Positions 5,452 to 53,857 of a stretch of DNA of 64,000 nucleotides are shown one piece after another. The notes beneath the pieces were generated by a model. That model was given only the letters and a program-made list of their open reading frames with translations, searched no databases and was not told the DNA's origin. Each line of letters begins with the position of its first letter. Within the stretch, counting starts at the first letter, position 1. The stretch is from Acidovorax soli (GTDB lineage Bacteria > Pseudomonadota > Gammaproteobacteria > Burkholderiales > Burkholderiaceae_C). The DNA lies in the NCBI RefSeq assembly GCF_900107605.1, contig NZ_FNQJ01000002.1, positions 1 to 64,000 on the forward strand, read 5' to 3'. The position numbers and the translations under genes were made by a program.

Positions 5452-6372
5452 ATGAAACATTACCTGCAGTTCAACGACCTCAGCGCCGACGAATACACCT
5501 ACCTGTTCGAGCGCGCCGCGCTCATCAAGAAGAAGTTCAAGGCCTACGAAAAGCACCACCCGCTGGCCGACCGCACGCTGGCCATGATCTTCGAGAAGGC
5601 CAGCACGCGCACGCGCGTGAGCTTCGAGGCCGGCATGTACCAGCTGGGAGGCTCCGTGGTGCACCTGACCACGGGCGACAGCCAGCTCGGCCGCGCCGAG
5701 CCGATCGAAGACAGTGCCAAGGTCATCAGCCGCATGGTGGACCTGGTGATGATCCGCACCTTCGAGCAGACAAAGATCGAGCGCTTTGCGGCCGACTCGC
5801 GTGTACCCGTCATCAACGGCCTGACCAACGAGTACCACCCCTGCCAGATCCTGGCGGACATCTTCACCTTCATCGAGCACCGCGGCTCCATCCAGGGCAA
5901 GACCGTGGCCTGGGTGGGCGACGGCAACAACATGGCCAACACCTGGCTGCAGGCCGCCGCGCTGCTGGGCTTCAAGGTGCATGTGAGCACCCCCCGTGGC
6001 TACGAGGTTGATGAGAAATTGGCCGCTGGTGCAGGTGGAATAAGCGCCAGCAGCTATCAGTTTTTCAGCAACCCGCTCGAAGCCTGCCGGGGCGCCGATC
6101 TGGTCACCACCGACGTGTGGACCAGCATGGGCTACGAAGCCGAGAACGAAGAACGCAAAAAAGCCTTTGCCGACTGGTGCGTGGATGCCGAGATGATGGC
6201 GGCCGCCAGGCCCGACGCCCTGTTCATGCACTGCCTGCCCGCGCACCGCGGCGAAGAGGTGCAGGCCGAGGTCATCGACGGGCCGCAATCCGTCGTCTGG
6301 GACGAGGCAGAAAACAGGATGCACGTGCAGAAGGCACTCATGGAGTACCTTCTGCTCGGCCGCATTGCATGA
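5452..6372 (+). CDS. argF: ornithine carbamoyltransferase
   Basis: Transfers the carbamoyl group to ornithine, giving citrulline. The 306-residue protein has the carbamoyl-phosphate site STRTR (51-55), HPCQ (129-132), the ornithine-side VGDGNNMANTW, and HCLPAHRGEEV near the C-terminus. Residues about 189-205 (LAAGAGGISASSYQFF), in the loop between the STPRGYEVD strand and the NPLEACRGADLV helix, are encoded by a copy of the interspersed palindrome found elsewhere in the window (6017-6065). The insertion sits in a loop that varies in length in the family, so the enzyme is probably active. Confidence 0.93.
   Translation: MKHYLQFNDLSADEYTYLFERAALIKKKFKAYEKHHPLADRTLAMIFEKASTRTRVSFEAGMYQLGGSVVHLTTGDSQLGRAEPIEDSAKVISRMVDLVMIRTFEQTKIERFAADSRVPVINGLTNEYHPCQILADIFTFIEHRGSIQGKTVAWVGDGNNMANTWLQAAALLGFKVHVSTPRGYEVDEKLAAGAGGISASSYQFFSNPLEACRGADLVTTDVWTSMGYEAENEERKKAFADWCVDAEMMAAARPDALFMHCLPAHRGEEVQAEVIDGPQSVVWDEAENRMHVQKALMEYLLLGRIA
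6017..6065 (+). repeat. interspersed palindromic repeat, in frame within argF
   Basis: The order GGCCGCTGGTGC, then TAAGCGCCAGCAGCTATCAG and a T run, matches the intergenic copies at 11294-11352 and 15094-15130. It is read in frame as part of argF. Confidence 0.65.
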
Positions 6373-48512: not shown

Positions 48513-48516
<4 letters not shown>

Positions 48517-50849
48517 ACGCCCCCCACACCATCGCCGAAACCGCCCTGCCCTCGCCCATTCGGGCCGCTATGGGCCAGTCACACATCCACGAAAGCGCCC
48601 GCGCCCAGGTGGCCGGGGCCGCCCACTACATCGACGACCTGCCCGAGGTGAAAGGCACGCTGTACGCCGCGCCCATTCTCTCGACCGTGGCGCACGGCCG
48701 CCTGAACGGCGTGGATGCCAGCGCAGCGCTGTCCTTGCCCGGTGTGCGCGGCGTGGTGCTGGCGGCCGATGTGCCGGGCGACAAGATCCTGGCCGCGTTC
48801 GCACATGACGAGCCCGTGTTTGCCATCGAGACCGTGCAGTTTGTCGGCCAGGTCATCGGCCTGGTGGTGGCCGATTCGGTGATGCAGGCGCGCCGCGCGG
48901 TGCGCGCCGTGAAGCCCGACATCACGCCCCTGCCCGCCGTGCTCACGGTGCAGGAGGCACTGAAGGCCGAGAGCCATGTGCTGCCGCCCGTTTTCGTGCG
49001 CCGGGGCGACGCGGCCACGGGCCTGGCGCAATCACGGCACCGGCTGAGCGGCGCGTTGGAAGTGGGCGGCCAGGAGCATTTCTACCTGGAGGGCCAGATT
49101 GCCTACGCGCTGCCGCTGGAGCAAAAGCAGTGGTGGATCTACTCCAGCACCCAGCACCCCGGCGAAGTGCAGCACTGGGTGGCGCACGCCTTGGGGCTAG
49201 ACAACCACGCCGTGCGCGTGGAATGCCGCCGCATGGGCGGCGGCTTTGGCGGCAAGGAGACGCAGGCCGGGCACCTGGCCGTGTGGGCCGCCGTGGCCGC
49301 GAACAAGCTGGGCCGCCCCGTCAAGCTGCGCCTGGACCGGGACGAGGACTTCATGCTCACCGGCAAGCGCCACCCGTTTGCGTATGCATATGACGTGGGC
49401 TTTGACGACACGGGCCGCATCACGGGCCTGCAACTGCAGATGGCGGCCAACTGCGGCTTCAGCGCCGACCTGTCGGGTCCCGTGGCCGACCGGGCGGTGT
49501 TCCACGCCGACAACGCCTATTTTCTCGAAAACGTGGAAATTGCCTCGTACCGCTGCAGGACGAACACGCAAAGCCACACGGCGTTTCGCGGCTTTGGCGG
49601 CCCGCAGGGCGTGATCGTGATCGAGGCCATCCTGGGCGACATCGCGCGCGCCCTAGGGCGGGACGCGCAGGATGTGCGCCTGGCCAACCTCTACGGCACC
49701 ACGGAACGCAACGTCACCCACTACCAGATGGCGGTGGAGGACAACATCCTGCACGAGCTGCTGCCCACGCTGGAGCAGACCTCGGGCTACCGCCAGCGCC
49801 AGGCCGAGATCGCCGCCTGGAACGCAAAGAGCCCCGTGCTCAAGCGCGGCATCGCCATCACGCCAGTCAAGTTCGGCATCAGCTTCACGGCCACGCTGTT
49901 CAACCAGGCGGGTGCACTGGTGCACGTGTACACCGACGGCAGCGTGCAGGTGAACCACGGCGGCACCGAGATGGGCCAGGGCCTGCACACCAAGGTGGCG
50001 CAGATCGTGGCCGACGAGCTGGGCGTTCCGCTGGCGCGCGTGCTGGTGACGGCCAGCGACACCGGCAAGGTGCCCAACGCCAGCGCCACCGCGGCCAGCA
50101 GCGGCACCGACCTGAACGGCCGCGCGGCGCAATACGCGGCGCGCCATGTGCGCGACAACCTGGCCGCATTCGTCTGCGGGCTCGATGGCTGCGGCGCGGG
50201 CGCCATCCGGTTTGCGGGCGGGCAGGTCATCTCGCCCAAGGCCGTGCGCAGCTTCGAAACGGTGGTCAAGGAGGCCTATGCCAACCGCATCCAGCTGTGG
50301 AGCGACGGCTTTTACCGCACGCCCAAGATCCACTACGACAAGGCCACGCTCACGGGCCGGCCGTTCTACTATTTCAGCTACGGCGCGGCCTGCACCGAAG
50401 TGGTGATTGACACCCTCACCGGCGAGAACCGCGTGCTGGCCGTGGACATCCTGCACGACGTGGGCCACAGCATCAACCCGGCCATCGACCTGGGCCAGAT
50501 CGAGGGCGGTTTTGTGCAAGGCATGGGCTGGCTCACCACCGAGCAGCTGGTGTGGAACGACAAGGGCACCCTGGCCACCCACGCGCCCAGCACCTACAAG
50601 ATCCCGGCCACGGGCGACATCCCGGCGCACTTCAAGGTTCAGCTTTGGCCCGAGGCCAACCGCGAGGACAACGTGGGCGGCAGCAAGGCCGTGGGCGAGC
50701 CGCCGTTGATGCTGGCAATCAGCGTGTACGAGGCGCTGCGCAATGCGGTGGCGGCGGGGCGCGAAGGGGATGCTGCAGCACCGGTGGTGTTGACGGCGCC
50801 GGCGACGGCGGAGAATGTGCTCAAGGCGTTGGGGCGGTTGGGAGAGTGA
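48513..50849 (+). CDS. xdhB: xanthine dehydrogenase large subunit (molybdopterin)
   Basis: The 778-residue molybdenum cofactor subunit. It has the conserved EGQIAYALP (substrate-side Glu region), RRMGGGFGGKE, AFRGFGGPQG with the substrate Arg, GGTEMGQGLHTKVAQI and, near the C-terminus, GGSKAVGEPPLMLAISV with the catalytic Glu. The ATG overlaps the xdhA stop. Insertion of its sulfurated cofactor normally needs XdhC, whose gene usually follows; here a large palindrome follows instead. Confidence 0.95.
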
Positions 50850-51682
50850 TGTTTTTGGATGCTGGCGATAGTGGGATATGCGCTGGTAGCTATTGATTTT
50901 GTAGTGTTGGGTTGTGGGCGCTGATTGGGCCGCATGCCTTTGCTGAGGGCGGAGGCCGGGAGTCGCCCGGCATGCGAGTCCCTTTCTTTCGCGTCGCCGA
51001 AAGAAAGGAACCAAAGAAAGGGCGACCCCGCTGTCTGCGTCCCCGCCGCTGCGCGCCGGGGCAACCTGCGGTGCTCGGGTTTGGCGGGGTCTCGCTCGAA
51101 CTCGCTGCGCTCAGACAATCGCGAGCCCTGATCCGCCAAACCCTGCGCTCCTCGGCGCATCCAGAGGGGCAAAGGGAGCCAAACAGCCACACGGGCCATC
51201 GCTGCGCTCGGCCCCACCTCGCGGGCGCAAGCGCCACGCGCTGCGCAACCTGGGCCTAGCGCAGCGATGGCCCGAATGGATGTCCGGCTGTTTGGCTGTT
51301 CGGCTGTCCCACCCCTGCTGGCTGCGCCTGCGGCGGGGCGGTTGTGGGGTGGCACGCGCGTCGCAGCGCGCGTGCTTCGTGAACTGACTCGCCGCAGTTG
51401 TTTGAACGGAGCGCGCCAGCGCGCAGTGAGTTCTGCGGCGCACCCCGCAACCGACATGCCGCAGGTTTGCCCCTTCGCACCGCGAAGGGGTCGCAGACTG
51501 GGGGTCGCCTTTTCTTTGGTGACTTTCTTTTGGCGAAGCAAAAGAAAGTTACTCGCACGCCGGGCGACTCCCGGCCTCCGCCCTCAGCAAAGGCATGCGG
51601 CTCAGTCAGCGCACGAAAACAAATACTACAAAATCAATAGCAACCACCGCATATCCCACTATCGCATCCAGCCCCAAACCCC
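50850..51682. repeat. large imperfect palindrome between convergent genes
   Basis: The whole 833-bp gap between xdhB and the convergent cyclase gene is palindromic around about 51265. The outer arms 50855-50908 and 51625-51676 are copies of the interspersed repeat. The next arms, 50931-50971 and 51559-51599, are perfect 41-bp inverted repeats. Further in, 50977-51030 and 51490-51552 (AAAGAAAGG..GGCGACCCC type) pair imperfectly, and an inner pair 51178-51216 / 51257-51296 (GCCAAACAGCC and GGGCCATCGCTGCGC with complements) closes the core. Open frames across it look like read-through of repeats, not genes. Confidence 0.85.
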
Positions 51683-53791
51683 TCAAACAGGCCCCAAAGC
51701 CATCCGCCCCGACGAAGTCACCGACGCATCCCTCGCATGCCGCGTTTCCACCCGATTGCGCCCCGCCCGCTTGGCGTCATAACAAGCCATGTCTGCCGCA
51801 TTCAGCAACGAAGGCACGTCCTGCAAGCTGGCATCCAGCGCCACCAGGCCAATGCTTACCCCCAGCGTGAAACTGCGGCCCTGGTATGAAGGTTCCCAGG
51901 TCTGCACCGCGGCGCGCAACTGCTCGGCCAGCGCCCGCCCCCGCGCCAGGGAGCAACCGGGCAGCACCACGGCAAACTCGTCGCCGCCCAGCCGCGCTGC
52001 CCAGCCGATCTGGCGCACCTGCGACTCCAGCAGGCGTGCCACATGGCGCAGCACGTCATCGCCCGCATCGTGGCCGGCCACATCGTTCACCACGGTGAAA
52101 TGGTCCAAGTCGAGAAACAGCATCACGCCATCGCCCTCAGTTTCCGCGGCATCCATGGCCGCCAAGGCCGATGTATGTGCCCGCGACGACCGTTCGGCCA
52201 GCAGCACGGCCATGCGCTGGACAAACGCTTCGCGGTTGCACAGTTGCGTCAGCGGATCGTGGGTAGCGCCCCAGTCCTGCTGCTGCTGCGCCTCGCGCGC
52301 GGCCGTCATGTCCTCCAGAATCCAGACGGTGCCACCCTCGATATCGTGTGCCTGTATCCCCCGACCCTGCACCCGTGCCCAGACGGGGCTGCCATCCTTG
52401 TGCATGAAACACACGTCCCCGTCAAACGCCCCATGGGCCACGAATTCGGCCTGCACCCTTGCGCCTAGCCGGGCGTAATCTTCATCCGATGCATAAAGAA
52501 TGCGCGCCGGGCGGCCCTGCAGCTCCCTGGCGCCATAGCCGAGCATCTGGCAGGCCTGCCGCCCCACCACTTCCAGAAGGCCCTGGCGGGTGATCACGAT
52601 ACCCACCGAGGCGTTGTCCAGGATGGCCTGGAACTGCCCCTCCAGCTGGGCGCGCTGCTCGCGCTCATGCGCGCTGTGCTGCACCTGCCCTTCAAACACC
52701 TGCACCAGCACCCCCACCTCGCCCGTGGCCCGGGGCCACACGATGGAGTCGGTGCGCCCCCCCTGTGCCAGCTGCAGTGCACTCTGGCACAACCGGGCCA
52801 GCGGCTGCGCCATCCACAGCGTGAACACCGCCAGCAGGGCCATGCTGGCGCCCATCACCGCGGCGGCCAGCCACCAGACCTTGCGCTGCGCACCTTCCAG
52901 CGGTGCCAGCATGGCGCTGGAATCCGTCACGCGCGCCACCAGCCACTGCGGCAGAGGCATTCCGGCCATGCTCACAATGTGCGCCGGCTGCACCACGGTG
53001 GTGCCCCGCCCTGCCACAGGCTGCGCCTGCTGCAGCCATTGGGCATAGACCGGCCCCAGCCCCGGCTCATCGCGCACGCTCCCCAGAATGCGCTGCGCAT
53101 CGGGGTGCGCGAGGATGGTGCCATCGCGGGTAAAGACAATCAGGCGCGAATCGTCCCGCGCCGGCGAGGTCATGGAAGGAGGCAGCAACCCTTGCGAATG
53201 CAGTTTCAGCGCCCCCGCCACCACCCCCAGAACCGGCCCCTCCTCGCGGCGCAGCGGCATGGTGAACACGACGCGTGCGCCGGTGGTGCGCGCCCCCACC
53301 AGTTCGGACACCAGGGGTTTGCCATCGCTGAGCGTGCGCCGCAGGGCATCGCGTTCGGCGGGGTCGAGGTTGGCCGCATCCTCCAGCCGCCCCGAATGCA
53401 GGTTGACACGCAACTCACCGTCCTGGCGGGCCACCTGCATGGAATCGAAGAATTGCACGGCTGGCAGGCCCTGCTGCAACAGCCAATGCAGCGATGACGG
53501 CGAACTGAGCATCTGCGGCGTGATGCCCTCGGCCACGGTGCGCAGCACTTTCTGGCTTTGCTCGATCTTGCTGGCCAGCAGCCGCGCCATCACCTCGACT
53601 TCTTCCGTCTGCTGGTCCACCAGGCGGCGGACGGCTTCGCGCTCCGAAGCACGCGAGGCCAGCCATGCCGACAGCCCCCCCGACACGGCCACGGCCAGCA
53701 GGGCTGCCAGCATCAGGCGCAGCACCAGCGGCCCGGGCAGCAACCAGCCGGGCGCATCCATTTGTGCCTGGGCGCGCTCCAAGGGCGTCAT
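51683..53791 (-). CDS. sensor diguanylate cyclase (Cache-like, PAS, GGDEF)
   Basis: A 702-residue inner-membrane protein. A first helix (about 20-45) and a second (about 305-330) bracket a periplasmic sensing part with Cache-like features (LIVFTRDGTILAHPD). A PAS domain (about 390-500, ILDNASVGIVITRQGLLEVVG) and a GGDEF domain with LGGDEFAVVLPG follow. The residues before the active site read RQIG instead of RxxD, so the product-inhibition site seems lost. ATG 53791 is chosen because further upstream sequence is basic and not hydrophobic. Predicted to make cyclic di-GMP in response to a periplasmic ligand. Confidence 0.85.
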   Translation of the reverse strand: MTPLERAQAQMDAPGWLLPGPLVLRLMLAALLAVAVSGGLSAWLASRASEREAVRRLVDQQTEEVEVMARLLASKIEQSQKVLRTVAEGITPQMLSSPSSLHWLLQQGLPAVQFFDSMQVARQDGELRVNLHSGRLEDAANLDPAERDALRRTLSDGKPLVSELVGARTTGARVVFTMPLRREEGPVLGVVAGALKLHSQGLLPPSMTSPARDDSRLIVFTRDGTILAHPDAQRILGSVRDEPGLGPVYAQWLQQAQPVAGRGTTVVQPAHIVSMAGMPLPQWLVARVTDSSAMLAPLEGAQRKVWWLAAAVMGASMALLAVFTLWMAQPLARLCQSALQLAQGGRTDSIVWPRATGEVGVLVQVFEGQVQHSAHEREQRAQLEGQFQAILDNASVGIVITRQGLLEVVGRQACQMLGYGARELQGRPARILYASDEDYARLGARVQAEFVAHGAFDGDVCFMHKDGSPVWARVQGRGIQAHDIEGGTVWILEDMTAAREAQQQQDWGATHDPLTQLCNREAFVQRMAVLLAERSSRAHTSALAAMDAAETEGDGVMLFLDLDHFTVVNDVAGHDAGDDVLRHVARLLESQVRQIGWAARLGGDEFAVVLPGCSLARGRALAEQLRAAVQTWEPSYQGRSFTLGVSIGLVALDASLQDVPSLLNAADMACYDAKRAGRNRVETRHARDASVTSSGRMALGPV

Positions 53792-53857
53792 GGGCACCCC
53801 GCAGGCGATAGGCCCAGGACAGAAAGATCGTGATGGGGCAACATACAAGCAGGCTTT

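Follow-up and report, generated by a model that had tools for sequence, protein, structure and literature searches.

A nested palindrome between xdhB and a convergent cyclase gene in Acidovorax soli belongs to a dispersed gene-end repeat that mostly faces against replication

In the 64,000-nucleotide stretch of Acidovorax soli DNA analysed here (the window), xdhB converges with a gene for a dCache/PAS/GGDEF diguanylate cyclase, and an 833-bp palindrome fills the gap between them exactly, stop to stop, as an earlier note on this DNA had claimed (Table 1). Its two arms (50851-51029 and 51501-51679) show 86% complementarity across 179 nt. Taken in the element's register this is 0.86, whereas random 833-bp segments drawn from the window, at most 100 of them and none starting at 50,000-52,500, reach no more than 0.39 (mean 0.27). 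Folded as single-stranded RNA, the palindrome reaches -601 kcal/mol, a z of -27 against 20 dinucleotide shuffles. The perfect inverted pair that the earlier note gave as 41 bp is indeed perfect and centred at 51265, and its true extent is 43 bp. The outermost arms proved to be one sequence in two opposite copies, again as claimed, and the left one (71% identity to the reference copy) falls into a family of small repeats that is also represented at 6024, 13641 and 15093. These opposite repeats, module A and its inverted copy A', enclose a core, B, of two inverted units, U and U', in support of the earlier suggestion of a composite built from two head-to-head repeats. Small A-type repeats lie elsewhere in the window at 6024, 13641, 15093, 17174 and 55974. 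Several long ORFs run through the palindrome on both strands (for example 50890-51259 and 51256-51558); they appear to be spurious and could turn up as hypothetical proteins in the annotation of relatives.

Table 1. Features of the xdhB–cyclase junction, in window coordinates
Feature	Position	Strand	Remarks
xdhB, xanthine dehydrogenase molybdopterin subunit	48513..50849	+	stop codon 50847-50849
Whole palindromic gap	50850..51682	.	xdhB stop to cyclase stop, 833 bp
Module A, left copy	50865..50904	+	small gene-3'-end repeat, inward-pointing
Left perfect 43-bp arm	50929..50971	.	outer edge of core B; hairpin 1 begins here
Core B	50932..51601	+ (orientation of the asymmetric centre)	dispersed ~670-bp repeat: unit U, centre, inverted U'
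Unit U, left type	50953..51169	+	start set by eye; holds hairpin 1, hairpin 2 (50980-50991 with its partner) and hairpin 51041-51061
AACTCGC..GCTCAGACA in the branched stem of U	51099-51117		
End motif of U	51158-51169		
Central hairpin	51190..51273	.	51190-51214 pairs with 51252-51273
Unit U', right type	51312..51578	-	inverted; hairpin 2 at 51523-51548; outer end set by eye
Right perfect 43-bp arm	51559..51601	.	
Module A', right copy	51626..51665	-	inverted
dCache/PAS/GGDEF diguanylate cyclase gene	51683..53797	-	convergent with xdhB; stop codon 51683-51685

That the palindrome is an artefact of assembly, a collapsed or chimeric repeat, is very improbable. The A. soli assembly is a draft of 90 contigs, and four of its contig ends lie in U arms or at most 63 bp from them, which speaks for such a reading. 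However, the same element stands between the same two genes in three other genomes that are complete or nearly so, G017 and G026 (one contig each) and G027 (two contigs), at loci L029, L161 and L149, and thus is not a product of the A. soli draft assembly. It is also found between these genes in named assemblies, among them L057, L058, L062, L076, L077 and L081. For this locus the artefact reading is already refuted in relatives, and a chimeric assembly at the palindrome itself appears unlikely. The four contig ends at U arms (G000:C89:1-110, C44:1-110, C37:10147-10254 and C60:162279-162386) are assembly breaks that probably mark further copies.

The element had been thought to occupy the place where xdhC would normally be found, a claim that our comparisons do not support. 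An XdhC gene lies at contig position 66214 on the same contig, about 15 kb downstream of xdhB, and in none of 80 named xdhB loci of relatives (flanks 0.2 to 6 kb long) does xdhC directly follow xdhB; a single flank, at L118, holds it 5.6 kb downstream on the other strand. We therefore rejected replacement of xdhC by the element. All 80 loci were checked for xdhC; 53 of them were scanned for the element, and gap length was taken from 41. Acidovorax provides the best named relatives in the xdhB scan, and records of the A. soli genome itself are possibly absent from it. Comparing the gap in sister genomes, as the earlier note had proposed, returned short gaps without the core in many relatives and no xdhC beside xdhB. 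Judged from these gene orders, the element was either added to the junction later or lost from it among relatives.

The state of the gap differs widely among relatives. A convergent cyclase gene lies near xdhB in 29 of the 41 loci with a gap length, and in 18 of these 29 the gap is 1-85 bp and lacks the core (L104 has A-like sequence). The core is present in six, with gaps of 767-1194 bp. Partial states comprise a 254-bp short palindrome (L067), a 190-bp gap with two opposite A repeats (L085) and arm-like pieces (L102), and the gap is long and without core in L061 and L082. No cyclase gene is in reach at 12 of the 41 loci; there, element matches are clear in L059, L060, L063, L064, L066 and L068 and short in L078. 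Twelve further loci, covered by the element scan, gave no element match, the cyclase gene being absent or 0.4-3.6 kb away. Such short or partial states of the gap (L061, L078, L085 and L067) could be intermediates or decay products.

A second junction, between the nitronate monooxygenase gene and cydB, was also compared. Among 30 orthologous loci, the core is present in A. soli, G041 and G024, the two genes are kept with gaps of 152 and 103 bp and one A-type repeat in G012 and G042, and most of the remaining loci have other neighbours. Neither at the xdhB nor at the cydB gaps was a precise empty site or a target duplication resolved, the compared gaps being too diverged. Several species carry the core at the xdhB junction, which leaves movement in the present day unproven.

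Beyond these junctions, the element is widely dispersed. The 833-bp query yielded 35 matches in the A. soli genome, with some places matched on both strands; these comprise the xdhB copy, seven more internal copies that are full or partial, arm matches at four contig ends, and a 48-bp match to the A end only. At least one element match occurs in 45 of 47 genomes of the genus (A. soli included) and, with two candidates scored per genome, in 141 of 250 genomes of the family and 95 of its 141 genera. Matches to the first 179 bp of the core were found in 36 of 200 genomes of the order and 14 of 299 of the phylum, sets that include A. soli and family members. G017 holds seven full copies and one half copy (40 of 55 candidates scored), and G027 eight full copies, one of them in two pieces, and one half copy (40 of 64 scored). 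Searches of phages gave no match to the element, and searches of plasmids returned four records.

Alignment of 43 copies defined a core of about 674 bp in which two inverted units flank an asymmetric centre. U and U' have similar arms and partly different inner stems, and unit length ranges from about 190 to 290 bp (90 left and 97 right units). Of 131 flanking sides, 83 carry module A pointing inward and one carries it pointing outward; a further module, T, faces inward on 68 of these sides and outward on none. Shuffled flanks, scanned in one sense, gave one A and no T. T lies between core and A in every listed row that has both; none was noted in the xdhB–cyclase copy. Since A points inward also beside gene starts (17 of 32 such sides), we dropped the idea of A as each gene's own terminator as a full account. 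U stands alone as half copies in G017 and G027 and recurs in other families of the order, as head-to-head pairs or, in L275, with arms facing each other (judged by eye); U is thus likely the basic unit.

The stems of the units are kept paired through many sequence changes. Hairpin 2 exists in many different paired variants (193 of 196 arms), while the search for hairpin 1 failed or returned a single pair in 93 of 193 arms. The 97 right units share 69 consensus pairs, for which 6562 of 6661 cells are Watson-Crick, 20 G-T, 36 A-C and 43 other; 14 of the pairs show at least two pair types. The 90 left units, which align less well, have 27 consensus pairs, six of them with at least two pair types; their cells comprise 2334 Watson-Crick, 65 G-T, seven A-C and nine other. 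Left and right units alike fold better when the alignment is read as the opposite strand. The patterns of G-T and A-C cells in the two unit types and these opposite-strand folds thus give no consistent sign of one transcribed strand. Either selection acting on a folded strand, or correction within palindromes together with conversion between copies, could keep the stems paired in this way.

For 78 of 100 copies the best match sits at a locus that was not scored as orthologous, in 28 cases within the same genome; orthology was judged from flank similarity only, and two genomes enter this set twice (L030 = L058, L039 = L076). Mean identity is 0.83 for orthologous pairs, 0.86 within a genome and 0.82 for other pairs. 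In two non-orthologous pairs printed in full, similarity stops at the core border on one side and inside A/T on the other. This pattern looks like gene conversion as much as transposition.

The orientation of the asymmetric centre mostly opposes the replication fork: the centre takes one direction along one half of the chromosome and the opposite direction along the other. Of 50 copies, drawn from ten genomes of one contig (eight) or two contigs (two), 46 face against the fork, a binomial p of 4e-10 if all copies are independent. Grouped by shared flanks, the copies form 17 locus clusters, 14 of them wholly against the fork, one wholly with it and two mixed (14 versus one, p = 0.001). Convergent sites alone divide 21 to two. 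At co-oriented sites, 15 of 16 copies face against the fork versus 13 of 16 against the genes, so that the fork predicts orientation slightly better than the genes there, four head-on sites discriminating. The four exceptions all fall in G025 and G029, where four of eight copies are anti-fork; in the other eight genomes the count is 42 of 42. The copies came from the best matches to the xdhB copy, a non-random part of those listed; fork direction was taken from dnaA positions, and the terminus was assumed to lie opposite dnaA since a pattern search for dif came back empty; centre orientation was set by similarity to the consensus. We see no way in which this choice of copies, the assumed terminus or the consensus-set orientation would produce the bias.

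The same tendency appears outside the genus: in five genomes of four other genera, seven of nine copies are anti-fork, a count that uses listed strands, dnaA and rounded genome sizes and in which strand scores barely differ in G234 and a copy in G269 lies near the presumed terminus. Four of the nine genomes considered (G061, G274, G144 and G166) were left out for half-unit matches and ambiguous orientation. The xdhB–cyclase copy is probably anti-fork too, as the GC skew of the window (-0.028) leans to a leftward-moving fork; at 4-fold sites the skew is -0.093 in plus genes and +0.020 in minus genes, the latter slightly positive, against the overall sign. As with elements of the IS200/IS605 type, such an orientation would agree with spreading or surviving by way of single-stranded DNA at the fork; palindromes whose survival depends on their orientation could account for the bias equally well. 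With DNA parameters the minus strand, the presumed lagging template, is predicted to be the stabler in 67 of 98 copies and the plus strand in 29; with RNA parameters the plus strand is stabler in 57 of 98 and the minus strand in 41. The modelled energies hardly separate the strands, and offer no usable hint on mechanism. None of the 50 copies lies within 11.5% of genome length from dnaA, where the two half copies of G017 and G027 do lie, and four of the 50 fall in the 20% of the genome nearest the presumed terminus.

Copies sit at gene ends. Among 66 copies, 34 lie in convergent and 30 in co-oriented gaps, one lies at a contig end, and the sole divergent copy, L151, has its left gene 2.9 kb away, which may be miscalled. 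Other gaps of at least 50 bp at the same loci divide into seven convergent, 79 co-oriented and 43 divergent (Fisher p = 2e-15 for convergent versus divergent, element versus other gaps). Genes were called with a purpose-made hexamer model trained on 24 ORFs of the window, and the copies were chosen, non-randomly and in part, from the best matches to the xdhB copy, L143 being dropped for a match below 350 bp. Intrinsic-terminator-like sites, a G+C-rich hairpin followed by a T run, number zero on both strands of 50700-51850, where shuffles average 1.5. One copy in the A. soli genome lies between two co-oriented RND-pump genes, which argues against strong termination at that copy, except if the second gene is transcribed from a promoter of its own. 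The earlier suggestion of a structure that ends transcription from both sides is possible but unproven: the placement at gene 3' ends speaks for it, the lack of a terminator-like site and the RND-pump copy against it.

These observations bear on several explanations. Hairpins that stop RNA polymerase, with Rho, or that protect the mRNA end would make the element a selected bidirectional 3'-end device, one that keeps convergent genes from transcribing into each other. The strong enrichment at gene 3' ends and near absence from divergent gaps, the inward-pointing A modules after gene ends and a very stable structure kept paired by compensatory changes all fit such a role. Yet the region around the palindrome holds no intrinsic-terminator-like site, 18 of 29 relatives with the cyclase gene manage with 1-85 bp and no core, a copy stands between co-oriented RND-pump genes, and A points inward beside gene starts as well; termination alone, moreover, leaves the orientation against replication unexplained. 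We consider this account rather unlikely. Another candidate is a MITE or foldback transposon that has long terminal inverted repeats and depends on a conventional double-strand transposase acting in trans; this would account for inverted ends, for dispersed non-coding copies and for a gene junction that has the element in some species and lacks it in others. It fits poorly with an orientation that follows replication, with the way similarity ends in both fully printed non-orthologous pairs, at the core border on one flank and inside A/T on the other, and with the failure to resolve a target duplication, and we think it improbable.

We give equally little credence to a structured non-coding RNA family in which unit U is carried as inverted pairs. 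Compensatory changes in the stems are what such a family would show, as are the motifs AACTCGC, GCTCAGACA and TGCTCG, conserved by eye between variable stems across families, and the excess of G-T (65) over A-C (seven) in left units is expected for an RNA of that sense. Against it, right units reverse that excess (20 versus 36), the opposite strand folds better for both unit types, the region has no sigma-70-like promoter, and no Rfam family reaches its gathering score, the five matches being to microRNA and lncRNA families and all far below it. Conversion and palindrome correction could also keep the stems paired. What we favour as the probable reading, with some reserve, is a dispersed non-coding nested palindrome that would have arisen or persisted as an insert between two genes kept 1-85 bp apart in many relatives. 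Its spread would have relied on folded single-stranded DNA at the fork, with the minus strand of the xdhB–cyclase copy as lagging-strand template, and copies would then have been exchanged by gene conversion. Its place at gene ends would reflect that it is tolerated there, and a 3'-end role in the flanking transcripts, such as a block to read-through or a part in trimming, may add to this.

The wider question is what makes bacteria retain large structured repeats at the ends of genes and by what route these spread, and the strong orientation against replication ties this element family to the fork. Very large nested palindromes placed or retained in one fork orientation at gene ends could, as a tentative and somewhat doubtful generalisation, be one of two things. 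They may form an oversized REPIN-like element spread through single-stranded lagging-strand DNA by a putative host enzyme, or they may be a polar boundary between fork and transcription that shields the ends of convergent genes. Repeats of this kind also disrupt assemblies, and spurious gene calls in the Acidovorax group may stem from them. Among the papers listed by literature searches, several of which covered the best 8-15 papers, none described the core or its orientation, and six sequence strings of the core do not occur in the literature searched. The element is a real, poorly described repeat with one unexpected property, its fork orientation; its outer A module has apparently been reported already (PMC5217627).

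That report concerns A. ebreus, where, in the part available, the motif GCTTAT(N)5AAGCG has 114 copies close to gene ends, 107 of them intergenic, with 44 in convergent, 59 in co-oriented and four in divergent gaps (PMC5217627). Module A is apparently this motif; it corresponds to the outermost module only, and the available text makes no mention of the core (PMC5217627). Like a MITE, the element is short, non-coding and dispersed, and has inverted ends; unlike one, it has no target duplication or parent transposon that we could see, its end positions being variable and a duplication not resolvable. IS200/IS605 elements offer a closer parallel in their hairpins and in an orientation tied to replication, a property shared by the 46 of 50 anti-fork copies here: IS608 and ISDra2 target the lagging-strand template, according to the accessible portion of PMC6006769. 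They differ in that our core is palindromic as a whole, with no fixed ends seen. No tnpA gene was called inside 66 core copies. Y1 transposase genes occur in 44 of 47 genomes of the genus, none of them linked to core B; G046 has 37 matches, mostly of equal score, an expanded IS200/IS605-type element, and other genus genomes have 0-3.

The nearest likeness is to REPINs and BIMEs. The excerpts available of the cited papers give REPs as 20-40 bp (PMC3733652), with GTAG or CGTC as a tag at the palindrome's base (PMC3733652, PMC2817692), and describe REPINs as structured repeats that occur in inverted pairs and whose mobility is proposed to depend on RAYT enzymes (PMC3116915). With REPINs and BIME-1, as those excerpts describe them, our element shares two structured units inverted about a spacer, an intergenic and dispersed distribution, compensatory stem changes, and a preference for convergent and co-oriented gaps (PMC3116915, PMC2817692, PMC3733652). 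We rejected a RAYT gene as neighbour of the repeats: 20 Y1_Tnp loci (about 4 kb each, 19 genomes) held no T or b module by pattern and an A in two, and an NCBIfam scan of one fragment for RAYT gave nothing. The element is a dispersed intergenic inverted pair of palindromic units, as REPINs and BIMEs are, yet U is far longer than a REP: the core measures about 670 bp and the units about 190-290 bp, against 20-40 bp in the available text of PMC3733652. It further differs from REPINs in having few copies per genome, A and T modules outside, and a centre set against replication. In its presumed working the element is like both REPINs and IS200/IS605 elements, but since neither a RAYT neighbour nor fixed ends were found, we do not file it as a member of either group, and it is best described as a large REPIN/BIME-like repeat.
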